The translations under genes and the position numbers were made by a program. Positions 3,531-54,424 of a stretch of DNA of 57,241 nucleotides are shown one piece after another. How positions within the stretch are numbered: position 1 is the first letter of the stretch; every line of letters begins with the position of its first letter. Source of the DNA: Bacteroidota bacterium (GTDB taxonomy: Bacteria; Bacteroidota; Ignavibacteria; Ignavibacteriales; Melioribacteraceae); NCBI GenBank assembly GCA_018818165.1, contig JAHISP010000064.1:1-57241 (forward strand). Direction: 5' to 3'. Below the pieces are notes generated by a model. It did not search any database, was not told the DNA's origin, and saw nothing but the letters and a program-made list of their open reading frames with translations.

Positions 3531-4925
3531 ATGAAAAAATTATTACTAACCCTAACCTTTGCTTTGTTAGCAACCCAATTATTTGCACAAAATGATATTA
3601 TAAATACTTTGGGTACAAATGGCAGTTTTATTGTAAAAGATGTTGAAAGTACATTTTTAACACTAAGCGGGAATGGAGAATCAAATACTGCTGTTTCGAG
3701 TCTTAATGTTAATGGCAACGCCGCTTTTACATGGGCAACATCAGCTTTTGCCCCAAATCTTTCTGCCGGTAGAAATGTAATTCATATGATAGGTAAGGCA
3801 GGAAGTGAATATAATGCGGGTTATATTGGGTTTAATTTTGTGGAATCTGGAAGTGCGGGTAACTTTTTAACTTTTGGACTTCATTCACATGACAATCTTT
3901 TTAATATTACAGGTGCGGGCAATGTCGGTATCGGGACGACGGGGCCGCAAGCGAAATTGGATGTTGCAGGCGCAATAAATATTGGAACTTCTCAGGGCGA
4001 AGCGTTGAAGGTTAATACAGGTTCTGCTTGGGCTAATCAGGTTTTGTTGCGCACAGGATGGACGGATGGAATTGGCGATTGGTCTGAATTATTAGTGCCT
4101 GGAGGTACTGATAATACGGCTAATTTGAGACTCACAAGCAACGGCAACGTCGGCATCGGGACAACAACACCATCATATCCTTTGCATGTTACTTCTTATG
4201 CGACTACAACAAATGATCCCGGGTATTTTTTTACCGGTAGTACATCAGAACTTACCGCGACCTATGGGAATTGGAATGTAGGCATTTATTCTGTGAATAG
4301 CATTTTGACTAATGGTGCTTTTGTGGCGTTTTCAGATTTGAGAATTAAGGAAAATATAAAGGAAGTTCAACATTCTTTGGATTTGGTCAGGAAGTTAAGA
4401 CCGGTTTCTTACAATAAAATAGACAAAATTGAAAATGGAGGTAGAACTGAATTTGGTTTTATTGCCCAGGAGGTGGAGAAAATACTGCCCGATGCAGTGA
4501 ACACCGGCACTGGCGAAATCCCCGTATTAAAACCATTTGATAAAGTTGAGTTTGAAGATGGTGTGACTTATACTATCCTTGTAAAAAACGGCGACGATAT
4601 TAAAGAGCAAACCTACACAAAAGATGATGTAAGACCGACCGGTGAAATTATCGTTAAATCGAAAACTGTAGATGATTTTAAATCCCTTTCGTATGATATG
4701 ATCTTTACTGTTGCTGTAGATGCTATACAGGAACAACAGACACAAATAGAAGCACAGCAAAAACAAATTGATGAACTTAAAGCAGCTAATTCGTTATTCG
4801 CACAAAAATTACAAATAATTGATGAACTAAAAGTGGAGCTTATTAATATGCAAAAAGCTCTTGAAAATAAAGATTCAGAAACACCAAATAGCCAAATTAG
4901 GCTTACAACTCTTGAGAATAATTAA
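3531..4925 (+). CDS. Secreted protein with GNVGIGT repeats and C-terminal S74 chaperone domain (copy 3)
   Basis: 464 residues from the ATG at 3531, with the same AGGAG leader as copy 2. After the signal peptide, the stalk diverges fully from copies 1 and 2 apart from two GNVGIGT motifs. The S74 domain starts at FSDLRIKENI (Ser268 predicted cleavage Ser) and contains EFGFIAQEVEKILPDAV. An insertion of about 60 residues between that motif and the SYDMIFTVAVDAIQEQ segment is absent from copies 1 and 2. The C-terminal coiled coil and terminal NSQIRLTTLENN match copy 2. The pattern of conserved leader and chaperone with variable stalk suggests diversification of the exposed part. Confidence 0.8.
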   Translation: MKKLLLTLTFALLATQLFAQNDIINTLGTNGSFIVKDVESTFLTLSGNGESNTAVSSLNVNGNAAFTWATSAFAPNLSAGRNVIHMIGKAGSEYNAGYIGFNFVESGSAGNFLTFGLHSHDNLFNITGAGNVGIGTTGPQAKLDVAGAINIGTSQGEALKVNTGSAWANQVLLRTGWTDGIGDWSELLVPGGTDNTANLRLTSNGNVGIGTTTPSYPLHVTSYATTTNDPGYFFTGSTSELTATYGNWNVGIYSVNSILTNGAFVAFSDLRIKENIKEVQHSLDLVRKLRPVSYNKIDKIENGGRTEFGFIAQEVEKILPDAVNTGTGEIPVLKPFDKVEFEDGVTYTILVKNGDDIKEQTYTKDDVRPTGEIIVKSKTVDDFKSLSYDMIFTVAVDAIQEQQTQIEAQQKQIDELKAANSLFAQKLQIIDELKVELINMQKALENKDSETPNSQIRLTTLENN

Positions 4926-4943: not shown

Positions 4944-5768
4944 ATGAAAAAAAAATTAATAATAGCAATATTTATTCTGCTTATTACACAAGTAATGGCA
5001 CAATCAAGCATAGTAGTAGATGCAAACTGTTCATTAGTAGCTGAAGCTGGCACAGACATTTGTGCAGGTTCAAAAAGTGGAGATGGAATTATTTCTGGAG
5101 ATGGAACATGGTGTAGTGGAGGTGCATTACCTGTTGAATTAACATTATTTACTGCGGTTAGTAATGGCAACGAAGTAATATTGAATTGGCAAACTGCCAC
5201 AGAATTAAACAACTATGGTTTTGAAGTTGAAAGATGCGTAGCACAGATTTCTAATCTGTGTAACAATTGGGAAAAAGTTGGTTTTGTAGAAGGACACGGA
5301 AATAGTAACAGTCCAAAAGATTACACATTTACAGATTCTCAAACCTTCGAGGTTTTGGAAAACCTCGAAGGTTTTAACGGTGTAATTCAATATAGATTAA
5401 AACAGCTCGATTTTGACGGAAAGTTTGAATATTCGGACGTTGTAGAAGTAAAATTGGCTGAAAACGTAAAAGCATATAAATTAGAACAAAATTATCCAAA
5501 TCCTTTTAATCCAAGTACGGTAATTAAATATTCAATTCCAACAGATGTGAAAAGTGAAATGTCAAACGTAAAACTTGTAGTGTATGATATACTTGGAAAT
5601 GAAGTAGCAACTTTGGTAAATGAGAATAAAAGTGCAGGCAATTATGAAGTAAAATTTGATGCTTCTAACTTGGCAAGCGGAGTTTATCTTTATCGCATAG
5701 CGATCCATTCGGATAAATTGCAAAGTGGTTCATTTGCTCAGACGAAAAAATTAATGTTGATGAAATAA
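4944..5768 (+). CDS. Small T9SS-sorted secreted protein with a minimal passenger
   Basis: 274 residues. It has a signal peptide (MKKKLIIAIFILLITQVMAQ), then only about 40 residues of unique, Gly/Ser/Cys-containing sequence, then the ALPVEL linker domain (about 58-175) and the T9SS type A sorting domain (LEQNYPNPFNPSTVIKYSIP through KKLMLMK at the end). The sorting domain directs export through the type IX system and surface attachment; this is known for the family. No enzymatic domain is visible. Palindromic elements lie in-frame at 5238-5264 and 5341-5374. A further extra segment (residues AIHSDK, about 5695-5718) is absent from the two larger PNPFNP paralogues at 8417 and 14388. AAGGTGA ribosome site; last gene of the operon starting at 796. 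Confidence 0.75.
   Translation: MKKKLIIAIFILLITQVMAQSSIVVDANCSLVAEAGTDICAGSKSGDGIISGDGTWCSGGALPVELTLFTAVSNGNEVILNWQTATELNNYGFEVERCVAQISNLCNNWEKVGFVEGHGNSNSPKDYTFTDSQTFEVLENLEGFNGVIQYRLKQLDFDGKFEYSDVVEVKLAENVKAYKLEQNYPNPFNPSTVIKYSIPTDVKSEMSNVKLVVYDILGNEVATLVNENKSAGNYEVKFDASNLASGVYLYRIAIHSDKLQSGSFAQTKKLMLMK
5238..5264. repeat. Palindromic element family A, copy 1 (in-frame in a T9SS gene)
   Basis: 27 nt with inner arms CACAGATT / AATCTGTG around TCT. It encodes nine codons (VAQISNLCN) in the linker domain of the 274-residue protein, between ...FEVERC and NWEKVGFVEG. Confidence 0.75.
5341..5374. repeat. Palindromic element family B, copy 1 (in-frame in a T9SS gene)
   Basis: 34-nt perfect palindrome with arms AAACCTTCGAGGTTTT / AAAACCTCGAAGGTTT around GG. 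It encodes TFEVLENLEGF in the second loop of the linker domain. Confidence 0.75.
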
Positions 5769-5776
5769 AGATTCAA

Positions 5777-5810
5777 AAACCTACGAAGTTTTTAAAAATT
5801 TCGTAGGTTT
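5777..5810. repeat. Palindromic element family B, copy 5 (in pseudogene)
   Basis: 34 nt with arms AAACCTACGAAGTTTT / AAAATTTCGTAGGTTT (one mismatch) around TA. The flanks (GATTCA before, CGATG after) match the intact copy at 7956, so it occupies the same position of the decayed linker domain. Confidence 0.7.
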
Positions 5811-5964
5811 CGATGTAAAGGTAATTATGAATGCCCAAAATTTTAACCGTAGAGATGGTATTTATCACGTCAGAATTTGCATTGTTGCAGAATTATCCAA
5901 ATCCGTTTGGCGAAGCCATCCCTTTGGGATAATCCGAAAACAATTATGAGTTATTCAATTCTTC

Positions 5965-5991
5965 GTAGCACAGAATATTATTCTGTGCCAC
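5965..5991. repeat. Palindromic element family A, copy 5 (in pseudogene)
   Basis: 27 nt, GTAGCACAGAA / TTCTGTGCCAC around TATTA. It has the same outer arms as the coding copies but a different centre, and lies in the decayed sorting-domain region rather than in the linker loop. Confidence 0.7.
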
Positions 5992-6224
5992 AAACAACAT
6001 TAAAAAATTACGACATTCTCGGAAACGAAGTAGCAACTTTGGTAAACGAGAAAAAAGTGCTGGCAATTATGAAGTAAAGTTTAATGCTTCCAATTTTGCA
6101 AGCGGAGTTTATCTTTATCGCATAGAGATCCATTCGGACAAACTGCAAAGTGGAAGTTTCGTTTAGACAAAGAAATTTGTTTTGATGAAATAACACACGA
6201 ATTACACTGATTTTCACGAAGAAA

Positions 6225-6254
6225 AAGTTCAACTTCTGCCAAGAGGTTGAACTT
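6225..6254. terminator. Hairpin after the T9SS remnant
   Basis: Arms AAGTTCAACTTCT and AGAGGTTGAACTT (one mismatch) form a stem, followed by ATTTATTAT rather than a clean T-run. It could terminate transcription of the 796-5768 operon or simply be another palindromic element. Confidence 0.35.
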
Positions 6255-6691
6255 ATTTATTATGGAAAAAACTTTTTAGGAGCTTAAAATAAATATTTAT
6301 TGTCTCAAAGAGAAGATTTGACATACAAGCGAAAAAATCGAAATTAAGTATAGGTGAAGAAATTTCTATTTGCGAGATGATTTTATCTAACTATTTATTA
6401 GTAAAATATTTATATTCATAAAGTAATCTTTTCAGAATTTAAAGCGATAGGATTATCGAAAAATAGAATCTTTTTTGTTTTTTTATTGACTTGATTCCTT
6501 ATTTCTCTTTTTAGCTGTTCCAACTTATGAAATCAATTAAGGGAATCAAAAAAATAGATAAGAATTTGCATTCAGTCAGAGAAGACGGGATGTAATTTCA
6601 AACGTTATTAGAGTCAAGTATACTTATTCCGAATGTACAGTACATTTTATTGAAATATAGATAAATTTGTCAAAAAACTACGGAGTTAACA
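6255..6691. other. Non-coding gap
   Basis: About 440 bp of AT-rich sequence with no reading frame, RNA gene or clear repeat that I can support. It presumably carries the promoter of the GLUG-repeat gene at 6692, which has CGGAG before its start. Confidence 0.4.
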
Positions 6692-8371
6692 ATGAGAACA
6701 CTTATTCTATTTTTTGTTTTATTTTCCTTTTCTATGCTTTTCGGGCAAACTGCAACACCTCCAGCGGCAGGCGATGGTTCAATTGGAACCCCATACCAAA
6801 TCACAACTCTCGAAAATCTTTACTGGATAGCGGCTTCAGATGGTGTGGTGTCAAGTCCAAATCAAGCGACCCGATGGGCTGCGTATTACATCCAAACCGC
6901 TGATATAGACGCATTGGCTACAGCGGGAGGTGATTGGGGTGCTGATGGGTGGACACCAATTGGCAATTCATCCTCAGAATCTTTCACAGGTTCTTATAAC
7001 GGACAGGGGTACTCAATTGATAGACTTACAATTTCAAGGGGCTCAACTAACTATATCGGCCTATTTGGTTATACCATAGGAGCAACAATTCAAAACCTTG
7101 GTGTAACCAGCGTCAGCATTACCGGTCAGCAAAGTGTTGGAAGTATTGTTGGCTATAACTATTCTACAACAATAAATAATTGTTATGCGACGGGAAACTT
7201 ATCAGGTGATATGACTTGCGGCGGACTTATTGGTAACAATATTTTTAATTCATCAGTTAATCGTTGTTTTGCTAATGTAGATATTCAAGCTAATGCAGTA
7301 GCTGGTGGATTTATTGGTAATAACAGTAGTTCGACAATCATCAACTGTTATAGTTTAGGAAATGTACAGTGCAGACAAGAAGGCGTGCAGGAGCCAACAT
7401 TAGGAGGTTTTTGTGGAAATCATGGGATTACTAGTGATTCTAGAATTGAATATTGTTATTCAATTGGCATGGTAAGTTATTTGTTGGCTGATGATCCAAC
7501 AAATAAGGGATTTGTTGGATCTAATAATAGTGGTGGTTATACAGCAAATTTTTGGGATACAGAGTCTTCGGGTCAATCATCAACAGGTTCAACTTCATTT
7601 GCAACAGGTAAAACAACTACAGAAATGAAAACGCAATCCACATTCTTGGATGCTGGTTGGAGTTCTGCAATATGGAATATTGGAGACGGAATTAACGATG
7701 ATTATCCATATTTAGATTGGCAAAACCCAAGTGGCACTCCGCTTCCGGTAGAACTAACATCAGTTACAGCTTCAACATCAGAAAACAAAGTAACATTAAA
7801 TTGGCAAACCACAACGGAAGTGAATAACTATGGATTCGAAATAGAGCGTTGCGTAGCACAGATTAGTAATCTGTGCCACAATTGGGAAACAATTGGTTTT
7901 GTAGAAGGACACGGAAATTCAAATTCTCCAAAAGATTATTCATTTGTAGATTCAAAAACCTCCGAGGTTTTTAAAAACCTCGGAGGTTTCGATGGAGAAT
8001 TACAGTATCGTTTAAAGCAAATAGATTTTGACGGAAATTATAAATATTCGGATGTTGTGGAAGTAACATTAACCGAAAATATAAAAGCATATAAATTGCA
8101 TCAGAATTACCCAAATCCCTTTAATCCCACAACGAGAATAGATTATCAACTCCCGTTCAATTCCGAATTAAAGATTGAACTTTATTCGATTACAGGAGAA
8201 AGAGTTGCTACGCTCGTTAACCAGCCGCAAGAAGCCGGATATTACACAATAGAAGTAAATACATCAAAGTTATGTTTGGCATCAGGGGTATATTTTTATA
8301 GGATGATAGTACAGAGTAACTTAACTAAAAACGAATTTATTCAAGTTAGAAAGCTACTAGTTATGAAATAG
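6692..8371 (+). CDS. T9SS-sorted surface protein with GLUG repeats
   Basis: 559 residues. Signal peptide (MRTLILFFVLFSFSMLFGQ), then an N-terminal YQITTLENLYWIA segment, then several GLUG-type repeats from about residue 120 to 270 (IGLFGYTIGATIQNLGV, VGSIVGYNYSTTINNCYATG, CGGLIGNN, GGFIGNNSSSTIINCYSLG, GGFCGNHG). GLUG repeats occur in bacterial adhesins and IgA-peptidase-like surface proteins; no protease motif is seen here. The linker (LPVELTSVTAS, about 348 on) contains in-frame palindromes A and B. The sorting domain starts at LHQNYPNPFNPTTRIDYQLP and diverges from the other three, ending VRKLLVMK. Likely a surface adhesin; the ligand is unknown. Confidence 0.8.
   Translation: MRTLILFFVLFSFSMLFGQTATPPAAGDGSIGTPYQITTLENLYWIAASDGVVSSPNQATRWAAYYIQTADIDALATAGGDWGADGWTPIGNSSSESFTGSYNGQGYSIDRLTISRGSTNYIGLFGYTIGATIQNLGVTSVSITGQQSVGSIVGYNYSTTINNCYATGNLSGDMTCGGLIGNNIFNSSVNRCFANVDIQANAVAGGFIGNNSSSTIINCYSLGNVQCRQEGVQEPTLGGFCGNHGITSDSRIEYCYSIGMVSYLLADDPTNKGFVGSNNSGGYTANFWDTESSGQSSTGSTSFATGKTTTEMKTQSTFLDAGWSSAIWNIGDGINDDYPYLDWQNPSGTPLPVELTSVTASTSENKVTLNWQTTTEVNNYGFEIERCVAQISNLCHNWETIGFVEGHGNSNSPKDYSFVDSKTSEVFKNLGGFDGELQYRLKQIDFDGNYKYSDVVEVTLTENIKAYKLHQNYPNPFNPTTRIDYQLPFNSELKIELYSITGERVATLVNQPQEAGYYTIEVNTSKLCLASGVYFYRMIVQSNLTKNEFIQVRKLLVMK
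7853..7879. repeat. Palindromic element family A, copy 2 (in-frame)
   Basis: 27 nt: left arm GTAGCACAGATTA, centre G, right arm TAATCTGTGCCAC (one mismatch to perfect). Encodes VAQISNLCH in the same linker loop as copy 1. Confidence 0.75.
7956..7989. repeat. Palindromic element family B, copy 2 (in-frame)
   Basis: 34-nt perfect palindrome: arms AAACCTCCGAGGTTTT / AAAACCTCGGAGGTTT around TA. Encodes TSEVFKNLGGF. Confidence 0.75.
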
Positions 8372-8416
8372 GTAATGTGTAAATAACATGTAAAAAAATA
8401 GTTAATTGGAGTTTCT

Positions 8417-11155
8417 ATGAAAACGTTTGAGTCAATCTTTTTTTTATTGCTATTACTTTCATTAAATCTTTATGCACAGCCAACTACTGCAAATCAAGAT
8501 TTTTATGTTACTAATGGCAACGTTTATGCAATTGCCGTTGATGGCGATTACACTTACATCGGAGGGGTTTTTTCTTATGTTGGAATGAATACAGGTTATG
8601 GCATCAAACTTACCGCAAGTTCAGCAGTGCCTTCAAAAACTTATCCAAAAGTGAACGGAACTATTTATTGTGTAGAACCCGACGGCAGCGGTGGTTGGTA
8701 TATTGGGGGAAGTTTTTCAAAAGTTGGAAGTTATACGCGAAATCAGATTGCTCATATTAACTCTGACGGATCAGTGAATACAACATGGAATCCAAATGCA
8801 AATTCAACAGTTTATTCAATAAAAAAAGACGGAAACAATATTTACGTGGGTGGAAATTTTACTACTATTGGAGGACAAACACGGAAAGCAATAGCAAAAT
8901 TGAATAACACGGATGGTAACGCTGATGCTTCATGGAATGCAAATCTTGATAATGCAAACCCAATAGTTTATACTATCGCAATAACTGGTAGTGATATTTA
9001 CATTGGAGGGAACTTTACATCGATAAATAGCACAACTGTTAATAAAATTGCCAAATTAAATATAAGCGATGGAAGTAGGAATTCAAGTTGGGATGCAAAT
9101 GCAAACAACAATGTTAAGAAGTTATTGATATCCACCAGCTATTTATTTGTAATTGGAGATTTCACAACAATAGGTGGTCAGTCCAGAAGCAAGATAGCAA
9201 AGTTGAATACAACTGATGGTAATGCTGAAACCTGGAATGCTAATCAAAACAGCTCAGTTTATGACATGGCTTTAAGCAGCGATGGAGGAGCATTATATGT
9301 TGGGGGGACTTTTACATCAATAGGAGGGGAATCCCGGACCAGACTTGCAAAAATAGGTGTTATAAATCCCTTGGTTGATGCTACATGGCAGCCTTATCCT
9401 AACCATGATGTCTATTCGATCGCTGTAACAAGCTCTGCTGTATATGTTGGAGGCAATTTCACAAATATTTCTTCCTCACAAGGTGTTGATGTGTACCGAT
9501 TTGCTAAGTTGAATACTTCAAATGGGGATGCCGTTTCTACGTGGTTACCTACACCAAATACTTATTCGAATGCAATTGCTATCAGCGGAGATGATATTTA
9601 TGCGGGGGGTAGTTTTTCATCTGCAGGAGGGAAATTCCAAAGTTATATCGCAAGAATAAATAATACTACCGGGAAACTGGATGAAAATTGGAGTCCAATA
9701 GGTGTTGGTGTTGTATATACAATAGATCTGGGAACTACTTACATCTACCTGGGAGGTGATTCGTTCGCTAAGAGATATATAAGATCAAACGCCGCACTTG
9801 ATGGTACGTGGACACCATCGTTTGATAATATTGTTAGAACAATTTATCCCGACGAATCAAACGATGCAATATATCTTGGAGGAGATTTTACTTCGGTAAA
9901 TTCCACTGCACGAAATTACGTTGCAAAAGTAAATAACTCCACGGGTGCTACTGATATAACATGGGATCCGAATGCCAGTAATCGTGTACGATCATTAATA
10001 GTATCCAGCGGTTCTGTTTATGCGGGAGGAGAATTCACCACCATTGGTGGACAATCAAGAAACTATATTGCTCATTTAAATACTACTAATGGTAATGCAA
10101 ATGACTTAAACCCAAATGCTAATAATTATGTTTACGATCTCGCTTTAAATGCTTCTAAACTTTACATCGGAGGGGGATTTACAGTAATTGGTGGTCAAAC
10201 CCGAAACCGTCTTGCAAAATATGATTTATCTTCAGGTTCACTTGATGAAACATGGAATCCAAATTCTGATGGTTGGATTTACACTTTGGTAACAAACAGC
10301 TCCGGTTCTTCTGTTTATGTAGGAGGAAATTTCTTCGTTATTGGCGGCTCAAATTCAATTTATTACCTCGCTAAACTTAATAACACAAATGGAAATACAG
10401 AGTCTTGGGATGTTAATTGCGGTTATTTAGTCCACTCTGTTGTATCAAGTGGTGATGATCTTTATGCAGGTGGCGAGTTCAATGCAATGAATGAGGACTT
10501 GCAGCCCAGGATTGCTCTTTTTACGACTAGAGCATTACCTGTAGAGATAGTAGCTTTTACTGCTAAATTAGAAAATAGGGTGATTAAGTTAAATTGGCAA
10601 ACTGCAACAGAAGTGAATAATTACGGATTCGAAATAGAACGCTCCGTAGCACAGATTAGTAATCTGTGCTACAATTGGGAAACCATTGGCTTTGTAGAAG
10701 GGCATGGAAACAGCAATTCTCCAAAAGATTATTCATTTGTAGATTCAAAAACCTCCGAGGTTTTTAAAAACCTCGGAGGTTTAGACGGAGAATTACAGTA
10801 CCGTTTAAAGCAATTGGATTTTAATGGAAATTATGAATACTCAAATGTTATTGAAATAAAACTAACCGAAATTGTAAAAGAATATAAATTGGAGCAAAAC
10901 TATCCAAATCCGTTCAATCCGACAACTACGATAAAATACTCAATTCCAAATAATGTGAAAAATGAAATGTCAAACGTGAAACTTATTGTTTACGATATTC
11001 TTGGAAGCGAAGTTGCAACTTTGGTAAATGAGAAAAAAAGTGCTGGCAATTATGAAGTAAAATTCAATGCTTCTAACTTGGCAAGCGGAGTTTATATCTA
11101 TAAATTGCAAAGCGGAGAGTTTGCTAAGACGAAGAAATTTGTTTTGATGAAATGA
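8417..11155 (+). CDS. T9SS-sorted surface protein with delta-60-type beta-propeller repeats
   Basis: 912 residues. Signal peptide (MKTFESIFFLLLLLSLNLYA), then about a dozen repeats of roughly 50 residues from residue 30 to 700, each of the form VYVGGNFTTIGGQ-x-R-x-x-IAKLN-x-x-x-G. This is the delta-60 / DUF5122 repeat, which forms beta-propellers in secreted proteins. The linker begins RALPVEIVAFTAK (about 708) and carries palindromes A and B in-frame. The sorting domain LEQNYPNPFNPTTTIKYSIP ... KKFVLMK closes the protein. Its last roughly 600 bp, the stop, the 3' spacer and the terminator match the end of the 14388 gene almost base for base. GGAG ribosome site near 8408. Function beyond surface display is not evident. 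Confidence 0.8.
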   Translation: MKTFESIFFLLLLLSLNLYAQPTTANQDFYVTNGNVYAIAVDGDYTYIGGVFSYVGMNTGYGIKLTASSAVPSKTYPKVNGTIYCVEPDGSGGWYIGGSFSKVGSYTRNQIAHINSDGSVNTTWNPNANSTVYSIKKDGNNIYVGGNFTTIGGQTRKAIAKLNNTDGNADASWNANLDNANPIVYTIAITGSDIYIGGNFTSINSTTVNKIAKLNISDGSRNSSWDANANNNVKKLLISTSYLFVIGDFTTIGGQSRSKIAKLNTTDGNAETWNANQNSSVYDMALSSDGGALYVGGTFTSIGGESRTRLAKIGVINPLVDATWQPYPNHDVYSIAVTSSAVYVGGNFTNISSSQGVDVYRFAKLNTSNGDAVSTWLPTPNTYSNAIAISGDDIYAGGSFSSAGGKFQSYIARINNTTGKLDENWSPIGVGVVYTIDLGTTYIYLGGDSFAKRYIRSNAALDGTWTPSFDNIVRTIYPDESNDAIYLGGDFTSVNSTARNYVAKVNNSTGATDITWDPNASNRVRSLIVSSGSVYAGGEFTTIGGQSRNYIAHLNTTNGNANDLNPNANNYVYDLALNASKLYIGGGFTVIGGQTRNRLAKYDLSSGSLDETWNPNSDGWIYTLVTNSSGSSVYVGGNFFVIGGSNSIYYLAKLNNTNGNTESWDVNCGYLVHSVVSSGDDLYAGGEFNAMNEDLQPRIALFTTRALPVEIVAFTAKLENRVIKLNWQTATEVNNYGFEIERSVAQISNLCYNWETIGFVEGHGNSNSPKDYSFVDSKTSEVFKNLGGLDGELQYRLKQLDFNGNYEYSNVIEIKLTEIVKEYKLEQNYPNPFNPTTTIKYSIPNNVKNEMSNVKLIVYDILGSEVATLVNEKKSAGNYEVKFNASNLASGVYIYKLQSGEFAKTKKFVLMK
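10646..10672. repeat. Palindromic element family A, copy 3 (in-frame, perfect)
   Basis: 27-nt perfect palindrome: GTAGCACAGATTA, G, TAATCTGTGCTAC. Encodes VAQISNLCY. This is the best candidate for the ancestral form. Confidence 0.8.
10749..10782. repeat. Palindromic element family B, copy 3 (in-frame)
   Basis: 34-nt perfect palindrome identical to the copy at 7956; encodes TSEVFKNLGGL. Confidence 0.75.
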
Positions 11156-11183
11156 CACAAAACATAATTTGATAAAAAATTTA

Positions 11184-11209
11184 AAGGCGGGAATTCTCCC
11201 GCTTTTTTT
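11184..11209 (+). terminator. Rho-independent terminator
   Basis: GCGGGA / TCCCGC stem with a 4-nt loop, followed by seven T. It lies 29 bp after the stop of the beta-propeller gene. The same terminator with the same upstream spacer occurs at 20371. Confidence 0.85.
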
Positions 11210-11337
11210 ATTTGTTGTGTTCTAACAAATAGAGATAAGCTCTAATATTAACAGCTATTTAGTGGCTTATCTTTAAATAATATATTATCTTTCTCAAACA
11301 ATTTTAGTGCTTTTCTAAATAATTCAGACAATTAACG

Positions 11338-13245
11338 GTGAGTTTTTATTTGCTGAAATTTTCTAAATATTTTCTCTCTTTTCTTGTTCTAATCTTGACT
11401 TTTATTTCTTGCTCTAATGATAAACTGCATGCTGATAAAAATAGCATTCAAATATCGTTAACTAATTTTCAATATTTTTCTGAGTCAACAGAATTATCCG
11501 GAAAAACACTTTCTATCAAAGAAGTAATTTCGTCTGCAAATTGGAAATCAATTGCATCCCCAAAAGAAATTAATGCAATCAAAAAAGGTGAAATAATTTG
11601 GCTGAAAACAATTCCTCCGGATTCCGGTTTAACTTATCCTTCAATTTATTTAGGACAAATTGTTTTCCATCTGCAAGTATTCTTTCGCGAAAAATTAATA
11701 TATGAATGGGGAGATTTTTCCTCAAATTCAAGTAAGTATTTACATTGGAAACAAGTTTTGATTCCAATCGAGGATTTGAAAAAAGGAGAGGATGTTTATT
11801 TTCGAATCAAAATGGAAGACTTAACAGATGCTATAAATAATGATTTTCTTTTCGGTTCATACGTGAGAATTGTTCAAAATATTTTTGAAGATAATATTTT
11901 TAATTTCATCCTCTTTATAATAATTTTGATAGCAGGGCTTTTGGTATCAATAATCTATTTTAATCTGGAAAAACCTTACCTGCTTTTAAGTTCAATGTTG
12001 TTTCTTTTTTCGATGGGAGTTTTTGTTGCCGTAAACAATTCATTCTTACAGTTGATATTTAGCTATCCAAACGTATTTTATCATTTGAACTATCTCTCGT
12101 TTAATATTGGCACTATCAGTTTTTATATATTGAGTGAACTTGTTGTAATTGACAAGTACAAAAAGATTATAAATATTCTTTGGAAAATAAAAATTGCAAT
12201 ATTGATTGCCTTCATTTTTGCGACAAATATTACCGATATTATATATCTGCAGGTAATAAAATATCAAGCAATTTTCGGTGTGCTTTCGCTTTTTATGGTT
12301 ATTGTTTTCTTGCTCATTAGTGCATTAAAAAGTAAGTATGAGAGCAAGATTTTAATTGTTGGAATGGCATTCATTGTTGTAACCGCTATTCTGGAATTCG
12401 TTTTTATTTTCATCAAAGGTTTTGAAGTCGGCTTTGGTTTCAAATTAAGATTTCTACCAATTGGAATATTCTTTTTTGTTTTGTCAATTATTTGGCTCGC
12501 AGTTTATAATTATTTTAAAACAATAAAAGAAAAGGAAAAAAATCAGCAATTGAGATTTGAAGCCATTCAACGAGAAAACGAAGCACATGCAAAGTTTGCA
12601 TCTCAATTAATTGAGTCGCAGGAAAATGAAAGAAACAGAATTGCATTGGAATTACACGACAGCATCGGACAAAAACTATTGCTTGTAAAAAATTTAATTT
12701 TATCTAAACTAAAGAGAACAGATAGTGAAGAGGAAACTAAATCATTAAACGGAATTAATGAGCTTACCGGCGATACAATTGATGAAATAAGAAGTATAAT
12801 TTTTAATCTGCGCCCGCAGCATTTGGATAATCTCGGTTTAACCGTAGCAATTGAAACCTTGATAGAAAAATTATTTGAATCTTCGGAAATAGAGTTTATT
12901 AAAAAGATTGATAACATTGATGATGCAGTTATTAAAGCGGATGAAATAAATTTATTCAGGATAATTCAGGAAAGTTTGAACAATATTCTAAAACACTCCA
13001 ACGCAGATAAAGCTATCATTGAAATTCAAAATTGTGAAAATTTCATTTTTGTGAAAGTTCATGATAATGGAACCGGAATTGAAAAGAACCAAAACAAATT
13101 AAATGGAGTTGGACTTAACAGCATCCGTGAACGGTCTAAAATTTTAGAAGCAGAATTAGAGCTGGATATTAATGGTAAAAATGGAACAACCATTATTTTG
13201 AAATATCCTGTAAAAAAAATTGTAAGTGATGATAACAATGAATGA
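11338..13245 (+). CDS. Membrane sensor histidine kinase, NarX/NreB type (HisKA_3)
   Basis: 635 residues from a GTG at 11338; no ATG lies nearby and no strong ribosome site is visible. The N-terminus is lipoprotein-like (LTFISC, lipobox Cys at about 26), followed by an extracytoplasmic beta-rich domain (about 30-185), six or seven membrane segments (about 188-390; a 7TMR-DISM-like layout by inference), and a cytoplasmic coiled coil. The HisKA_3 motif is NRIALELHDSIGQKLL with His440 as phosphoacceptor, followed by DEIRSIIFNLRP and an HATPase domain (HDNGTGI, GVGLNSIRER). It overlaps the downstream regulator by 8 bp, so the pair is surely a two-component system. It may control the adjacent surface-protein genes; the signal is unknown. 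Confidence 0.85.
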   Translation: MSFYLLKFSKYFLSFLVLILTFISCSNDKLHADKNSIQISLTNFQYFSESTELSGKTLSIKEVISSANWKSIASPKEINAIKKGEIIWLKTIPPDSGLTYPSIYLGQIVFHLQVFFREKLIYEWGDFSSNSSKYLHWKQVLIPIEDLKKGEDVYFRIKMEDLTDAINNDFLFGSYVRIVQNIFEDNIFNFILFIIILIAGLLVSIIYFNLEKPYLLLSSMLFLFSMGVFVAVNNSFLQLIFSYPNVFYHLNYLSFNIGTISFYILSELVVIDKYKKIINILWKIKIAILIAFIFATNITDIIYLQVIKYQAIFGVLSLFMVIVFLLISALKSKYESKILIVGMAFIVVTAILEFVFIFIKGFEVGFGFKLRFLPIGIFFFVLSIIWLAVYNYFKTIKEKEKNQQLRFEAIQRENEAHAKFASQLIESQENERNRIALELHDSIGQKLLLVKNLILSKLKRTDSEEETKSLNGINELTGDTIDEIRSIIFNLRPQHLDNLGLTVAIETLIEKLFESSEIEFIKKIDNIDDAVIKADEINLFRIIQESLNNILKHSNADKAIIEIQNCENFIFVKVHDNGTGIEKNQNKLNGVGLNSIRERSKILEAELELDINGKNGTTIILKYPVKKIVSDDNNE

Positions 13246-13897
13246 GATAACAATTATTATAGCCGACGACCATCCTCTATTTAGAGCCGGTGTTCGTAGC
13301 GAACTTGAAAATCAGAACGATTTTAAAATAGTTGCCGAAACCGGAGATGGTTTGCATGCTCTTCATTTAATTGAAGAATTGAAGCCGGATATTGCTGTTC
13401 TCGATTATCAAATGCCGAGCATGAAAGGAAATGAAGTAACTAAAAAATTATCCGGAATTAATAGCAAAACAAAAGTGGTACTTCTTACAATGCATAACGA
13501 TAAAAAAACATTCCTTAATGCGTTGGAATCGGGTGTACAGGGTTTTGTATTAAAAGATGACGCCGTGCTGGATATTGTTGAAGCTGTAAGAAAAGTAAAT
13601 TACGGCGAAAAGTTTTATAGCTCCAGGCTTACAAATCTTTTGATTGAAGGTATGAAAGAAACGGAGTCTGAAAAAAGAACAATTGCGTTAATAAAAGAAC
13701 TTACGGATTCTGAAAGGAAATTACTTTCATTAATTGCCAGGTTAAAATCAAACGATGAAATTGCGGATATTCTGTTTATCTCAAAACGAACAGTTGAGAA
13801 TAATAAGGTTGCAATTGCACATAAACTGCTTCTCGAAAACTCAAAAGGATTACTCAAATTTGCAATTGAGAATAAAGATAACTTAACTGAAATTTAG
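13238..13897 (+). CDS. NarL/LuxR-family response regulator
   Basis: 219 residues from the ATG at 13238 (starts at 13226 and 13229 are also possible). The receiver domain has IIADDHPLFRAGV, the phosphoacceptor in VLDYQMPSMKG (Asp56) and VLKDD with the conserved Lys. The C-terminal LuxR helix-turn-helix reads LTDSERKLLSLIARLKSNDE and ISKRTVENNKVAIAHKL. It overlaps the histidine kinase gene, so it is the cognate regulator. DNA targets are not known; the nearest candidates are the receiver and beta-helix protein directly downstream. Confidence 0.9.
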   Translation: MNEITIIIADDHPLFRAGVRSELENQNDFKIVAETGDGLHALHLIEELKPDIAVLDYQMPSMKGNEVTKKLSGINSKTKVVLLTMHNDKKTFLNALESGVQGFVLKDDAVLDIVEAVRKVNYGEKFYSSRLTNLLIEGMKETESEKRTIALIKELTDSERKLLSLIARLKSNDEIADILFISKRTVENNKVAIAHKLLLENSKGLLKFAIENKDNLTEI

Positions 13898-14043
13898 TAT
13901 TATCTTTACATATAGCCAAAATTAAAGTACCCTCCCAACTCAAAAAAATGCGTTGACGCACGGAAAAAAGTGTGTTAACTCTTATAAAATCTAAAACTCA
14001 AATAATTATTTTTATCCAATCTAATAAACAATTTGAGAATACT

Positions 14044-14391
14044 TTGAAATTTCTTTTGTTGAATGAAAATGAGATTTTCGGAAATTACATTAAAACCCTA
14101 ATCTCTAACCATTGTGATGAATGTATTGAAGTGAAAGATTTTGCTAACTTGAACTTTTACTACAAAAATAGTTCTCCTGATATAACTTTAATTGACATAA
14201 ATCTAAAAAATGTAAATGCATTCGTTCTGGCATCAAATCTAAAAAAAAAATATCCCAAAGCTAAAATTGCACTTCTAGCAGATTATGAAGATAAAACGCT
14301 TCAAAAAAAATCCGATCAAATTGGAGTTGACGCATTTATTCCAAAAGAAAATATATTTGAAATTTATAATAGACTAAAGGTGATTTCATGA
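14044..14391 (+). CDS. Stand-alone receiver-like protein with an altered acidic pocket
   Basis: 115 residues from the TTG at 14044. The frame is open back to a GTG at 13972, but only the TTG start gives a normal receiver with strand 1 at residues 2-6 (KFLLL) and the acceptor Asp at 51 (LIDINLKN); TTGAG lies upstream. The usual Asp-Asp of the metal pocket is replaced by Asn-Glu-Asn (LLNENEIFG) and the Thr/Ser switch by Ala (ALLADYE), while the Lys is kept (FIPKEN). Phosphorylation may therefore be weak or absent. No output domain. Its stop overlaps the ATG of the 1984-residue surface protein (ATGA), implying translational coupling. Confidence 0.6.
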   Translation: MKFLLLNENEIFGNYIKTLISNHCDECIEVKDFANLNFYYKNSSPDITLIDINLKNVNAFVLASNLKKKYPKAKIALLADYEDKTLQKKSDQIGVDAFIPKENIFEIYNRLKVIS

Positions 14392-17300
14392 AAAAATCAT
14401 TACTTTTGATTTTCTTTATTCATACAGTAACCTCTATAATACTTAATGCACAATCCACAATTTATGTTGATGCTTATGCGAGTGGAAGTAACAACGGCAC
14501 AAGCTGGTTAAGTGCTTACACATCTTTTCAATCCGCACTTGATAACGCCGTTTCGGGGGATGAGATCTGGATTGCAAAAGGAACTTACAAACCAAGTTCA
14601 GATAATGGTCTCGGCGGCGGATCTCGTTATTATCATTTCAGCTTAAAAATCGGAGTTGATGTTTATGGCGGTTTTGCAGGTACAGAAAACAGTATTGAGG
14701 AAAGAGAAAATTATGGACATGGCGAAGTAAATGAAACCATTTTTAGTGGCGACCTAAATGGCGATGATGTTGGTTTTACCAATAACTCGGAAAACTGTTA
14801 TCATGTTATTTACAATCACACTACTTCAATAAACGCTATACATTTTGATGGTGTTACAGTTTCCGGGGGTAACGCAAATGGTTCAGGCGATCATGCAAAG
14901 GGAGGCGGTATGTTTAACTACAGGGCGTCAAACCCATTGTTGAATCATATTATTTTTTCAGGTAACTCGGCTGTATATGGCGGCGGAATGTACAGTTATA
15001 ATAATTATCTGACTCATACCAATGTTACTTATAAAAACAACATTGCGGATTATGGTAGTGGAATTTGCATACAGGGGGCAATAACAGATATAAAATTTCA
15101 CAATTGCATTATCTCGGGGAACAAGTCAAATTATGATGGCGGTGGTGTTTTTATTGAAGGAGCCAGGTTTCTTCCTATAAATACAACTATTACCGGCAAT
15201 CATGCTGATAGAAACGGAGGGGGAATATATGTTAATAATAGTTTTGGTCCACAATCGGATCTGATGAATTCAATTCTGTGGGGAAATACCGCAACCAACA
15301 GCGGATCACAAGTTTATAATGCCGGTTCAAACCATCCAAATATTTACAATTGTGATGTGGAGGGAGGCTCTGCAGGTATTGGGCTTAGTTCCGGAACGTA
15401 TTCAGGAATTTATTCAAATAATATTGACGGCGACCCGAATTTTGTAACTGACGTCACTTCTCCGGCGCCAAGTGCAGTTGGCGATTTTCATCTTATCAAT
15501 GATTATCCCACAAGTACTTCTCCCTGTTTTGAAGCGGGAAATAATGATTTATTGTATTACTTGCAATTTACCGATTTTGATGGCGAAAACCGCATCCAGG
15601 TTGAGCATGTTGACATAGGTGCATACGAGGGGGGAAATTATTCCACCTCGCCCATCATTTATGTTGATATAAATGCTACGGGAAACAACGATGGGATTAC
15701 CTGGGCAAATGCTTTTACCGATTTGCAGTGGGCATTGCTGATTGCCCGTACATGCCCGGGCTTTACTACCATTAAGGTGGCTGCCGGAACCTATAAACCT
15801 ACAAGCGGCACCGACCAGACCATCTCATTTGCAATGGTTAACGGCATTTCAATACTGGGCGGTTATCCTACCGGCGGAGGCGCCCGCGATTGGGAAACCA
15901 ACGAAACCATTCTGAGCGGCGATTTAAGCGGTAACGACGTTTTTGATGTAACAAATTACGGATTCCAAGGCACAAGCGGTGACGATAACAGCTATCATGT
16001 TATTTATAACGATTCCTTAATCAACCTGAATACTACGGCAGTATTGGATGGTTTTACCATTTCCGGCGGATATGCACCAACTGAAGACGATAATGATCTT
16101 AGTACCCCACCCAATCCTATACCCGGCTCTGGAGGTGGAATGTGCAATCTTTCCGCTTCTCCAAAAGTTGTTAACTGCATCTTCACCGGTAATCAGGCAC
16201 TTTTCCAAGGCGCCGGCATGCTTAATTATAATGGTTCATCGCCCTATGTGAGTAACTGTACCTTCTTTGAAAATATATTATATGGGTCGAGTTCTTGCTA
16301 TGGCGCAGGTATGGCTAACTATAATGGTAGCAGTCCAAGTGTTGACTCTTGTGATTTCATTTCGAATTATTCCGGCGTGGGTGCTGCCGGGATGTATAAT
16401 GCAGAAGATTGTGACGTATTGATAACCAATTGCTTATTTTCCGAAAATATTGCTTTTTATGACCCTATTCGCCAGCAACCAAACGGGGGAGGCGGGATGG
16501 CTAATTTAAGTAACCATCCTGTGATTATTGACTGCATATTTTCCGGGAATGTAGCTGAGTATCAAGGCGATGGAGGGGCAATGTACAATTACTTGTCGGC
16601 TGTAACACTTACCAATGTTACTTTTTTAAACAATACAGCAGAGCATTTTGGTGGTGCAATATTTACGGGTTCTTGTTGGGAATCTGTTTACACTAACTGT
16701 ACTTTTTTCGGTAACTCAACGGATTGGTATGGTGGCGCAATATTTTTCCGAAATAGTACAGGGCTTTATGAAAATTCGATTTTTTGGGGAAACACAGCGG
16801 GAAGGGAAGGTGATCAAATTTGCTTTACTCTTGACCATGGGGAAACCGATTTTTATCATTGCAATATACAAGGCGGCACGGCAGCATTCGGCTTTACTGA
16901 AGGTAGCGGAACCTATACAGGAAACTTTATAAACAATATAGATGCAGACCCATTATTTGTTGATGCTTTAAATGACGACCTAAGGCTTTACGGAAATTCA
17001 CCTGCTGTGAATACCGGGAATAACAGTTATAATTCTGAACTTACTGATTTACGCGGGCAGGCACGTATCCAGAACACAACGATAGACATGGGCGCTTATG
17101 AATGGACCGCAGGCATTGATCCCTATATGAGCACAGGAAATACGATTTATGTTGATGTGAACGCTTCGGGAGCAAATGATGGTTCAAGCTGGGCAAATGC
17201 CTTTACTTCTTTGCAATCTGCATTGGATGTAGCTATTTCAGGAAACTCCATTTGGGTGGCAAAAGGAACTTATAAACCTTGTTCAGCTTACGATCTGACG

Positions 17301-20300
17301 AATACTTCACGCTATTATCATTTTAGAATAATTGAAGGTGTAAAAATCTACGGCGGTTTTGCCGGAACGGAAACAGCCGTCAGCCAAAGGATAAACTTTG
17401 GTTCGGGCGAAGCAAATGAAACAATCTTAAGTGGCGACTTGAGCAGCAACGATAATTTTGATGTTACAAATGGAGGATACCAAACTACTACAGGTGATGA
17501 TAACTGCTACCATGTGTTGTATCATCCCGATGGATTGAATCTTACAAGCGCCGCGATTCTTGACGGATTTACCATTACCGGTGGGAATGCGAACGGAGCA
17601 GCTGATCCACACAACAAAGCCGGTGCAATGTATCTTTATTCATCATCGCCAACTATACAAAATGTGATCTTTCATTCTAATGAGGCGACAAGTTTTGGTG
17701 GCGCAGCGTACATTTACAACAGCACATCGGAATTTTCGACTGTTACATTTTTAGAAAATATTTCCGGTGGTGGTGGCGCTTTTTACATCAGCTATGCAAG
17801 TCCGGTTTTGAATAATTGCATATTTACAGGAAACGTGTCATCCGGCGATGGCGGCGCTTTCTCCACCCATTCATCATCACCAACGCTCACCAATGTTTTG
17901 TTCTCGTCGAACATTACCGGTAACAATGGCGGGGCGATTATCTTTTATTCAAACTCGGTTCAGTTCAACGCCACATTAAACAATGTTACACTTTCGGATA
18001 ATCACGCCAATGCTAATGGCGGGGGCATACGTTTTGCCTCCAATAATGCAGCTTCAACACTTAGCTTAAACAATAGCATAATCTGGGGCAACACGGCTGG
18101 AACTTCCGGTAACGAATTATCGCTGGTCAGTACAGGAACTACCACACTGAATTATTCCTGCTTTAAAAATGAAACAAATGACGTTGCTGTTTCCAATGGA
18201 ACGCTTACTTCTTCGAATAACAATACTACCGCCAATCCCAAATTTGTTGATCCGCCTTCAGATGATTTCAGGATCATTGGGCTTTCTCCCTGCAAGGATA
18301 AAGGGTTGAATGGGTATAATGCATTGGCAAGCGATATACGAGGACAGATACGTATCCAGAATACAATAATAGATATGGGCGCTTATGAATGGACTAGCGG
18401 AATTGATCCCTACTTGAGTACCGGAGAAGTTATATATGTTAATATCAATGCATCGGGAGCAAATGACGGTTCAAGCTGGGCTAATGCCTTTACTTCTTTG
18501 CAATCTGCATTGGATATAGCAATTTCCGGTAATTCCATCTGGGTAGCAAAAGGGAACTACAAACCAAGTTCAGCTTACAATTTGACGAATACTCCACGCT
18601 ATTATCATTTCCGCTTAATTGAAGGTGTGGAAATCTATGGTGGATTTGCCGGCACCGAAACAACTATCAGTCAGAGGATAAATTTTGGTTCGGGTGAAGC
18701 TAATGAAACCATTTTAAGCGGCGACTTGGGTAGCAATGATAATTTTGATGCAACCAATGGCGGATATCTTGCCGGCTCAGGCGTAGATAATTGCTACCAT
18801 GTTTTTTATCATCCAGAGGGACTGAACCTTACAAGCGCTACCATTTTTGATGGCTTTACAATCACCGGTGGAAATGCAATCGGAACAACAGATCCACACA
18901 ACAAAGCTGGCGGATTATATCTGTATTCATCATCACCCACCATAAAAAATGTAATCTTTCATTCTCACCAAGCAAGAGAACTCGGCGGTGCAGCATACAT
19001 TTACAACAGCAGTTCCGAATTCTCAAATGTTTCGTTCGTTGAAAATATTTCCGGTGGCGGCGGGGGACTTTATGTTTCAACAGGAAGTCCTGTTATCAAT
19101 AATGCAATATTTAGCGGCAATGTATCTTCCGCTGACGGCGGGGCTTTATCAACCCATTCTGCTTCGCCAACGCTCACCAATGCTTTATTCTCCTCGAATA
19201 CTGCTGGTAACAATGGCGGGGCGATTATCTTTTATTCATCTTCTGTTCAATTCAATGCTACACTGAATAATGTTACGATTTCGGATAACCTGACAGGGCC
19301 AAATGGTGGGGGTATACGTTTTGCTTCTAATAATGCATCTTCAACACTCAACATAAACAATAGCATCGTTTGGGGCAACACGGCTGTAACTTCTGGCAAT
19401 GAATTATCGTTGGTCAGTACTGGAACTTCAACACTAAATTATTCTTGTTACAAAAACCAAGCTAATGATATTGAAGTGTCGAACGGGACTCTAACCGCCA
19501 CGAACCATAATATCAATACAGATCCTTTATTTGTGGATGCCGTTGGAAATGATTTTAGACTTCATGGTGAATCGCCTTGTACTGACGCCGGTAATGATTC
19601 ATATAACACACAAACTTATGATATTCGCGGTACAGGTTTTTCAAGGAAATTAAATAAAGCAACAGGTACTATCGGAACAATTGATATGGGAGCTTATGAA
19701 TATAAATTGGGAGATGACCCACTTCCGGTTGAATTAACTTCATTCACCGCAAATGTAAACGAAAACAAAGTTGTGTTAAATTGGCAAACCGCCACAGAAG
19801 TGAATAATTACGGGTTTGAAATAGAACGCTGCGTAGCACAGATTAGCAATCTGCGTAACAATTGGGAAACAATTGGTTTTGTTGAAGGGCATGGAAATTC
19901 AAATTCTCCAAAAGAATATAGTTTTATAGATGATAAAACCTCCAAGGTTTTTAAAAACCTCGGAGGTTTAGAAGAAGAATTACAGTACCGCCTAAAGCAA
20001 ATAGATTTTGATGGAAATTATGAATATTCGGATATTGTGGAAGTAAAATTGACAGAAAATATAAAAGAATACAAATTGGAACAAAACTATCCAAATCCGT
20101 TTAACCCAACAACTACGATTAAATACTCAATTCCAAATAATGTAAAAAATGAAATGTCAAATGTGAAACTTATTGTTTATGATATTCTCGGAAAAGAAGT
20201 TGCAACTTTGGTAGATGAGAAGAAAAATGCAGGTAATTATGAAGTTAAATTAAATGCTTCCAATTTAGCAAGTGGAATTTATCTGTATAAATTGCAAAGT

Positions 20301-20342
20301 GGAGAGTTTGTTCAGACGAAGAAATTTGTTTTGATGAAATGA
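14388..20342 (+). CDS. Giant T9SS-sorted surface protein with four parallel beta-helix modules
   Basis: 1984 residues. Signal peptide (MKKSLLLIFFIHTVTSIILN), then four modules that each open with IYVD-x-NASG-x-NDG-x-SW-x-AFT-x-LQ-x-AL (starting near residues 24, 424, 919 and 1348). Each continues with GTYKPSS, a GGFAGTE segment, NETILSGDLS, and many GGGMY / NGGGI turns of a right-handed parallel beta-helix (pectin-lyase-like, choice-of-anchor Q type). Each module ends with DIRGQ-x-RIQ...IDMGAYEW. Modules 3 and 4 are a 1287-bp tandem duplication. The linker (LPVELTSFTAN, about 1779) holds palindromes A and B in-frame; the sorting domain ends KKFVLMK. AGGTGA ribosome site lies inside the receiver gene, which it overlaps by 4 bp. 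Carbohydrate binding or adhesion is plausible; no lyase active site is evident. Confidence 0.85.
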   Translation: MKKSLLLIFFIHTVTSIILNAQSTIYVDAYASGSNNGTSWLSAYTSFQSALDNAVSGDEIWIAKGTYKPSSDNGLGGGSRYYHFSLKIGVDVYGGFAGTENSIEERENYGHGEVNETIFSGDLNGDDVGFTNNSENCYHVIYNHTTSINAIHFDGVTVSGGNANGSGDHAKGGGMFNYRASNPLLNHIIFSGNSAVYGGGMYSYNNYLTHTNVTYKNNIADYGSGICIQGAITDIKFHNCIISGNKSNYDGGGVFIEGARFLPINTTITGNHADRNGGGIYVNNSFGPQSDLMNSILWGNTATNSGSQVYNAGSNHPNIYNCDVEGGSAGIGLSSGTYSGIYSNNIDGDPNFVTDVTSPAPSAVGDFHLINDYPTSTSPCFEAGNNDLLYYLQFTDFDGENRIQVEHVDIGAYEGGNYSTSPIIYVDINATGNNDGITWANAFTDLQWALLIARTCPGFTTIKVAAGTYKPTSGTDQTISFAMVNGISILGGYPTGGGARDWETNETILSGDLSGNDVFDVTNYGFQGTSGDDNSYHVIYNDSLINLNTTAVLDGFTISGGYAPTEDDNDLSTPPNPIPGSGGGMCNLSASPKVVNCIFTGNQALFQGAGMLNYNGSSPYVSNCTFFENILYGSSSCYGAGMANYNGSSPSVDSCDFISNYSGVGAAGMYNAEDCDVLITNCLFSENIAFYDPIRQQPNGGGGMANLSNHPVIIDCIFSGNVAEYQGDGGAMYNYLSAVTLTNVTFLNNTAEHFGGAIFTGSCWESVYTNCTFFGNSTDWYGGAIFFRNSTGLYENSIFWGNTAGREGDQICFTLDHGETDFYHCNIQGGTAAFGFTEGSGTYTGNFINNIDADPLFVDALNDDLRLYGNSPAVNTGNNSYNSELTDLRGQARIQNTTIDMGAYEWTAGIDPYMSTGNTIYVDVNASGANDGSSWANAFTSLQSALDVAISGNSIWVAKGTYKPCSAYDLTNTSRYYHFRIIEGVKIYGGFAGTETAVSQRINFGSGEANETILSGDLSSNDNFDVTNGGYQTTTGDDNCYHVLYHPDGLNLTSAAILDGFTITGGNANGAADPHNKAGAMYLYSSSPTIQNVIFHSNEATSFGGAAYIYNSTSEFSTVTFLENISGGGGAFYISYASPVLNNCIFTGNVSSGDGGAFSTHSSSPTLTNVLFSSNITGNNGGAIIFYSNSVQFNATLNNVTLSDNHANANGGGIRFASNNAASTLSLNNSIIWGNTAGTSGNELSLVSTGTTTLNYSCFKNETNDVAVSNGTLTSSNNNTTANPKFVDPPSDDFRIIGLSPCKDKGLNGYNALASDIRGQIRIQNTIIDMGAYEWTSGIDPYLSTGEVIYVNINASGANDGSSWANAFTSLQSALDIAISGNSIWVAKGNYKPSSAYNLTNTPRYYHFRLIEGVEIYGGFAGTETTISQRINFGSGEANETILSGDLGSNDNFDATNGGYLAGSGVDNCYHVFYHPEGLNLTSATIFDGFTITGGNAIGTTDPHNKAGGLYLYSSSPTIKNVIFHSHQARELGGAAYIYNSSSEFSNVSFVENISGGGGGLYVSTGSPVINNAIFSGNVSSADGGALSTHSASPTLTNALFSSNTAGNNGGAIIFYSSSVQFNATLNNVTISDNLTGPNGGGIRFASNNASSTLNINNSIVWGNTAVTSGNELSLVSTGTSTLNYSCYKNQANDIEVSNGTLTATNHNINTDPLFVDAVGNDFRLHGESPCTDAGNDSYNTQTYDIRGTGFSRKLNKATGTIGTIDMGAYEYKLGDDPLPVELTSFTANVNENKVVLNWQTATEVNNYGFEIERCVAQISNLRNNWETIGFVEGHGNSNSPKEYSFIDDKTSKVFKNLGGLEEELQYRLKQIDFDGNYEYSDIVEVKLTENIKEYKLEQNYPNPFNPTTTIKYSIPNNVKNEMSNVKLIVYDILGKEVATLVDEKKNAGNYEVKLNASNLASGIYLYKLQSGEFVQTKKFVLMK
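17100..18386 (+). repeat. Internal tandem repeat unit 1 (1287 bp)
   Basis: Encodes beta-helix module 3 of the giant surface protein. It is closely similar, base by base, to the next unit at 18387; the unit length of 1287 bp is 429 codons, keeping the frame. Confidence 0.75.
18387..19673 (+). repeat. Internal tandem repeat unit 2 (about 1287 bp)
   Basis: Encodes beta-helix module 4. Identical stretches with unit 1 include GGTTCAAGCTGGGC and TTTACTTCTTTGCAATCTGC. Similarity fades toward the 3' end, where the linker domain begins. Confidence 0.7.
19833..19859. repeat. Palindromic element family A, copy 4 (in-frame)
   Basis: 27 nt in the same linker loop; the right arm has drifted (CAATCTGCGTAAC), so this copy is no longer a perfect palindrome. 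Encodes VAQISNLRN. Confidence 0.7.
19936..19969. repeat. Palindromic element family B, copy 4 (in-frame)
   Basis: 34 nt with one arm mismatch (AAACCTCCAAGGTTTT against AAAACCTCGGAGGTTT). Encodes TSKVFKNLGGL. Confidence 0.7.
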
Positions 20343-24050: not shown

Positions 24051-24084
24051 TAAAAATTACATACCTGTGTTTATTGAAGCTATT

Positions 24085-24313
24085 CACTTAATTGCATCTG
24101 GCTTTGGCTTCTAAAAATTTCATAACAAATAACAAACGTCAAAAGATAAATTTCAAACAAATTGCAAAAATGAATAGCCAAACCCCAAACTCATTATTTT
24201 TGAATGAATCATTCATAAAAAAGTTTGGATATTAGAAATTGAAATCTGTGTACTATTTGGTTTTTGTGTTTTGTCAGTTGGTCTTTAAAAACAAATTATT
24301 CGTAACCAAAACT
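24085..24313 (+). repeat. 229-nt AT-rich hairpin-like dispersed repeat, copy 1
   Basis: Aligns over its whole length with 36360-36588 in the same orientation, at roughly four fifths identity by eye. Shared blocks include AAAAGATAAATTTCAAACAAAT and TTGGATATTAGAAATTGAAA; both copies end in GTAACCAAAACT. The left half (AAATAnCAAA-type words) is imperfectly complementary to the right half (TATTTGG, TTTTTGTG), so the RNA or DNA strand could form a long hairpin. No reading frame is conserved. Identity of the element is unknown. Confidence 0.75.
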
Positions 24314-36331: not shown

Positions 36332-36359
36332 ATTGGTCTCAGTAGAAATTAAAACTATG

Positions 36360-54412: not shown

Positions 54413-54424
54413 AATTCATTTATA

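Follow-up and report, generated by a model that had tools for sequence, protein, structure and literature searches.

A GTAG-class repetitive palindrome read in frame in loops of type IX secretion system proteins in an Ignavibacteriales genome

This study concerns a 57,241-nt stretch of DNA (hereafter the window), contig C15 of a 4.88-Mb genome in 105 contigs (G000), which carries four forward-strand open reading frames (ORFs) for cargo proteins of the type IX secretion system (T9SS). All four match Por_Secre_tail: an ORF of 274 aa at 4944..5768, one of 559 aa at 6692..8371 with a GLUG motif, one of 912 aa at 8417..11155 with DUF5122 repeats, and one of 1984 aa at 14388..20342 with choice-of-anchor Q domains. 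Each was found to contain, in frame and on the forward strand, one copy of a 27-nt palindrome which we refer to as REP-A. The copies lie at 5238..5264 (encoding VAQISNLCN), 7853..7879 (VAQISNLCH), 10646..10672 (VAQISNLCY) and 19833..19859 (VAQISNLRN); those at 5238, 7853 and 19833 have an ATT-type stem, the last with an altered 3' end. VAQISNL is encoded in all four at one position of the linker that precedes Por_Secre_tail, confirming the initial annotation, which had placed the palindrome in one loop of four surface proteins. A fifth forward-strand copy (5965..5991), which had been listed together with these four, belongs to another loop: its stem is of the AAT type, and it occupies a loop of the broken sorting domain of a pseudogene. 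The five copies are above chance, a pattern search of the window with up to three mismatches giving 10 strand matches against 1.31 expected and a maximum of 5 in 100 shuffles. The perfect palindrome described at first, with 13-bp arms and a 1-nt centre, is seen at 10646, the only copy that matches both strands without a mismatch; the other copies show 1 to 3 mismatches on the reverse strand. A search of the window against Rfam gave no match at gathering scores. The window also contains an inverted repeat (24673-24814 and 54275-54416; arms of 142 nt, 87% complementary, 29 kb apart) and a direct repeat (24073-24313 and 36348-36588; 241 nt, 84% identical).

The next turn of the same linkers holds a second palindrome, family B, which is also in frame and on the forward strand (5341..5374, 7956..7989, 10749..10782 and 19936..19969), and a further forward-strand copy (5777..5810) is present in the pseudogene remnant that follows the first gene. 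Structure predictions, made with alignments of 15 rows (mean pLDDT 78.8) and 13 rows (85.3), place the two REP-A positions, and also that of family B, at turns between β-strands. The copy at 10646 is predicted to form the turn between strands 35-42 and 53-60, with a pLDDT below 50 at residues 46-49, and family B at 10749 would lie between strands 69-75 and 91-100. Judged by strand order rather than by superposition, the sorting domain's first turn corresponds to the exposed s1-s2 hairpin of RgpB, as described in an excerpt of PMC4804311. Elsewhere in the genome, two Y1 transposase genes (C92 and C22; loci L046 and L047) are flanked by CCTCCGAGG, which is the family B palindrome; the protein from C22 scores 73.4 against an NCBIfam cut-off of 80. 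At L177 and L179, the linker turn that family B occupies elsewhere holds an in-frame CTGAGCGGAGTCGAAG repeat (AERSRS), and the other copies of CTGAGCGGAGTCGAAG in the fetched stretches lie in no ORF of at least 200 aa.

The 27-nt palindrome is a repetitive extragenic palindrome (REP) of the GTAG class, an identity given by its GTAG head and its associated transposase and missed by the initial annotation. Part of the text of PMC8266576 defines GTAG REPs as palindromes of approximately 20-50 nt with GTAG ahead, and REP-A exhibits both features. Inverted REP pairs, as in BIMEs, are present at 4418-4490 and 5454-5528 of locus L040 (contig C34), outside the window, where REPs bracket a gene for a 195-aa protein in the manner of a REPtron and tandem units of ~131 bp lie upstream of that gene. 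The protein matches Y1_Tnp in Pfam and scores 87.5 bits against the NCBIfam model REP_Tyr_transpos (NF047646; cut-off 80). Its alignment to TnpA-REP of E. coli (4er8; E 5e-6) covers the His-x-His and Tyr regions, which are presumably those with roles in REP-associated tyrosine transposases (RAYTs). By family membership, the 195-aa protein is such a transposase (RAYT-A). The linkage of RAYTs with REPs and the cleavage of REPs by TnpA-REP are described in excerpts of PMC2817692 and PMC8266576, respectively.

Linkage to the GTAG head extends to RAYT homologues. In two overlapping sets of loci, a GTAG hairpin was found within 400 bp of the gene at 20 of 30 in one and 39 of 58 in the other, the distal control windows giving 0 of 28 and 1 of 95, respectively, whereas two other four-base heads occurred at 2 of 30 loci each and 4 of 58 each. 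The test used detected no GTAG hairpin at the remaining 10 of 30 and 19 of 58 loci. Stem sequence varies by lineage at these loci, for example in Hymenobacter, and a genome of the same genus carries a RAYT 96% identical to that of G000. At locus L208 of G003, another genome assigned to this genus, the place syntenic to the RAYT-A locus of L040 has a REP, and no match to RAYT-A was found in G003. Another Y1 transposase gene of G000 (C19; L045 3600-4550) is surrounded by short repeats of another kind, AACTTTTT and AAAAGTTGGG, and its product, at 68.9, falls short of the NCBIfam cut-off (80).

With up to two mismatches, the headed pattern gave 77 strand matches in G000 against 5 for the reversed control, and the palindromic core was found at 58 places against 1 for the control. 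Known REP families often have higher copy numbers. In the fetched stretches, 54 copies were mapped, about four of the 58 core places falling outside this set. Nine of the 54 are at the RAYT locus, eight in the linker loop and twelve in sorting domains (nine in open genes, three in broken ones), so that T9SS export modules hold 20 copies, 17 in open genes and 3 in broken ones. The other 25 lie elsewhere with no ORF of at least 150 aa, a criterion which stands in for gene calls and by which the copies are mostly non-genic (34 of 54). One of these 25 is in an open frame of 142 aa between two genes, before the start of what we take to be a PII-like gene, and an additional, degenerate sorting-domain copy in L062 exceeds the mismatch limit. 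At L051 (4003-4660), two REP clusters lie ~500 bp apart where the counterpart in genome G002 has one, which suggests a duplication, or a deletion between clusters.

This count of genic against other copies, proposed at the outset, supports the original view of a dispersed DNA element that is read in frame: the palindrome is not confined to one domain family, the outcome named in advance as refuting that view, since 34 of the 54 mapped copies are outside T9SS modules. It also makes it very improbable that ordinary protein homology, namely a conserved domain peptide whose DNA is palindromic by chance, accounts for REP-A. Such a reading gains from the fact that the mapped in-gene copies of G000 are all in one protein system, but it is at odds with the copies outside that system, with the use of two different frames and with related domains which do not have the peptide.

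With regard to these frames, the linker copies use one frame, giving VAQISNL, and in the sorting domains the reading is shifted back by one base, so that most copies give R- or S-STEYYSV. The initial claim that the palindrome is read each time in its only open frame therefore applies to the four linker copies and not to those in sorting domains. The sorting-domain frame is open only where the centre of the palindrome creates no TAG. In a hand tally of GTAG-oriented AAT-stem copies from G000 and G002, excluding the three broken sorting-domain copies, a TAG centre was present in 11 of 13 non-coding and 0 of 19 coding copies (p 6e-7). This test is partly circular, given that a TAG in frame would close a coding copy, and the tally therefore shows a filter and is no separate proof.

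The copies in the linker loop agree in stem type, position and phase, their paralogous linkers are 60-87% identical, and family B is present in seven of the eight linkers, the eighth being cut by the end of its contig. For these reasons, the four linker copies of the window more likely trace back to a single insertion that was then copied as the domain duplicated. Against protein homology alone, the dispersed element proposed at first holds, yet for these four copies domain duplication is the likelier source. The same features favour a broader alternative, in which each loop received one insertion and transposition then ceased, all remaining coding copies having arisen as T9SS linker and sorting modules were duplicated or shuffled. 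Two observations on the sorting domains agree with it. The codon ahead of GTAG is nearly characteristic of the species, encoding Arg in 9 of 10 copies from G000 and Ser in 10 of 12 from genome G015; together with the single stem type per loop in G000, this points to few founding insertions. In addition, a single clade of sorting-domain carriers is not rejected, since holding the 17 carriers together gave p 0.08.

Other properties of the sorting-domain copies count against this alternative. Where two copies encode the same residue, codon identity within the REP was much higher than in the three codons before and after it: 0.93 against 0.59 and 0.63 in G015 (585 of 628 REP codons identical), 0.84 against 0.57 and 0.62 in G000 (289 of 344), and 0.89 against 0.43 and 0.39 in G002 (202 of 227). 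The REP exceeded its flanks in 66 of 66, 41 of 45 and 36 of 36 pairs, respectively, the pairs not being independent. Outside the REP, identity was 39-63% in adjacent codons and 48-67% farther out; it drops sharply at the REP edge and shows no steady outward fall. This boundary fits insertion after the domains had diverged, or correction or constraint that would act on the REP only. Moreover, the upstream domains of the sorting-domain carriers are mostly unrelated, and sorting domains that are closely placed differ in the repeat which fills this loop, their groups having modest support. Once the loop had been removed, a tree built from 111 sorting domains required 14 changes for the 17 rows with REP-A, at least six of them forced by starred branches, which is weak support given 79 columns, a plain non-mixture model and an unsettled bootstrap; rows were labelled on the DNA, the degenerate L062 row by hand from its sequence. 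We regard one insertion per loop, with duplication alone thereafter, as a serious possibility of somewhat less than even probability.

Comparison between genomes revealed one orthologous difference. A gene of G002 (L254) carries REP-A, and its orthologue in G000 (L319), 79% identical over 1.7 kb, is without it, the G000 loop being itself altered. In a second pair (L261 and L074, about 85% identical), the REP is common to both genes. When loci of G001, G002, G003 and G004 were compared with the fetched stretches of G000, which make up a minority of that genome, no exact 27-nt empty site was found.

The conservation of codons within the REP could also reflect selection on DNA or RNA, with the palindrome kept as a hairpin, a transcript end or a site of recombination between sorting domains, and no new insertions. 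The resistance of REP codons to synonymous change is what such selection would produce, and three species retain one non-genic REP although the spacer around it aligns poorly. On the other hand, REP centres vary, several coding copies have altered stems, and the loop is commonly a plain turn of four residues, which was seen in 38 of 81 sorting-domain rows of G000 (11 rows were unparsed; the motif finder covered the fetched stretches and misses domains without the motif). We therefore consider this explanation unlikely.

REP-A is not the only repeat in the sorting-domain loop. The GTCATTGCGAG repeat, which we take to resemble the published CGTC class, fills the same loop in three genes of G000 and occurs at 19 places genome-wide (control 0). 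The CTCCCCTC...GGGAGGGG repeat is found in this loop in two genes by pattern and in a third, in altered form, by resemblance, and two further copies are in no long ORF. The GACATTCC palindrome occupies the loop in one gene, with no second copy in the fetched stretches. At L303, L305 and L312, the loop is filled in frame by repeats of the GTCATTGCGAG or CTCCCCTC type, and in G015 the sorting domain near position 2452 of L362 has another unlike insert (SVMVSLSNHD...) in the same loop. Tentatively, the first sorting-domain turn may serve Ignavibacteriales genomes as a general landing pad, on which unrelated families of short repeats would settle independently and in frame; some lineages, such as G015, might then keep the REP mainly as coding sequence after loss of the RAYT, which would diversify export signals.

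Among relatives, the headed pattern was found in 48 of 146 genomes searched, G000 included, and the reversed control in one genome among those listed. The two-sided form was present in 36 of 393 genomes, with no positive among those listed as 'same class'. A match to RAYT-A at E 1e-10, weak and partial matches included, was obtained in 65 of the 146 genomes: 28 of 48 pattern-positive and 37 of 98 pattern-negative ones (p 0.02). The best matches, by a cut chosen afterwards, were in 14 of 48 and 7 of 98, respectively. Genome by genome, the association between REP pattern and RAYT is thus loose and weak. From the relatives, 107 distinct copies were picked by pattern matches, which is not a random sample, and 11 of them are in ORFs of at least 150 aa. 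T9SS sorting domains account for seven of these 11; three more sit where the RAYT frame itself extends upstream, and the last is in an uncharacterised ORF of 206 aa. In G015, sorting domains hold 12 of the 15 fetched copies, which were found with a pattern written from the sorting-domain context (the context-free two-sided count is similar, 14), and no match to RAYT-A was found in this genome, which is 91% complete, despite its many coding copies.

Taken together, it is likely that REP-A is a GTAG REP spread by a RAYT, tolerated in T9SS loops, and multiplied there by module duplication as well as by repeated insertion or homogenisation. The RAYT, a single-strand HUH/tyrosine transposase, would spread REP-A through Ignavibacteriales genomes, and the palindrome would settle mostly outside genes. 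A copy within a gene would survive where it adds about nine stop-free codons and the protein tolerates them, and such tolerant places in G000 may be the β-strand turns of the T9SS linker and sorting domains. Multiplication could follow two routes. Duplication of T9SS modules is the likely one for the linker copies, and the sorting-domain loop probably acquired its copies by repeated insertion or by homogenisation at the level of the REP. The REP identity, the RAYT linkage, the reading in frame, the loop position in predicted structures, the conservation boundary and the single orthologous difference are observations; mobilisation of these copies by the RAYT, and tolerance instead of benefit as the reason for the site, are what we infer.

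As in the GTAG REP/RAYT systems, REPtrons and BIMEs described in excerpts of PMC2817692, PMC3733652 and PMC8266576, REP-A has a GTAG head, a short stem-loop, inverted pairs and tandem units, a REP-bracketed RAYT gene and mostly non-genic copies. It differs from them in that genes or their remnants hold 20 of the 54 mapped copies, every one in a T9SS module. The palindromic elements of Rickettsia, to which the initial annotation had likened REP-A, serve as an analogy, being palindromes in frame in protein genes (PMC3733652, in part); the intragenic GTAG REPs of the same excerpted source are a closer description. The likeness to the Rickettsia elements is one of description: REP-A belongs to another lineage, has a linked RAYT and, rather than being spread in frame over unrelated protein genes, has all its mapped in-gene copies of G000 in T9SS modules, with 1 of 107 copies from relatives in another ORF (the one of 206 aa). 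The intragenic GTAG and CGTC REPs in the parts of PMC3733652 consulted are likewise within ORFs, and its authors had already suggested flexible linkers or loops as tolerant places; their hosts are many and unrelated, many of them in DNA synthesis or repair, whereas REP-A is found repeatedly in the same loops of one export module. Searches of the open-licence literature for T9SS with palindromic repeats, palindromes in Ignavibacteria, RAYTs or REPINs in Bacteroidetes, and REPs or palindromes within coding regions gave nothing on T9SS loops among the papers listed, as judged by titles and the beginnings of abstracts. The text of PMC3733652 contains no word beginning with 'ignavibacteri' or 'hymenobacter'. 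Intragenic GTAG REPs have been known since 2013; what is new is the recurrent T9SS loop and the sharp boundary between REP and host codons.

In this uncultured bacterium and in some of its relatives, a repeated DNA element is now part of open genes, which brings REP/RAYT biology into an order that has received little study and ties it to the type IX secretion system. The same protein loop, filled in many genes by transposase-linked DNA, constitutes a natural set for asking by what route mobile palindromes get into genes, which reading frames persist and whether such insertions ever become useful.
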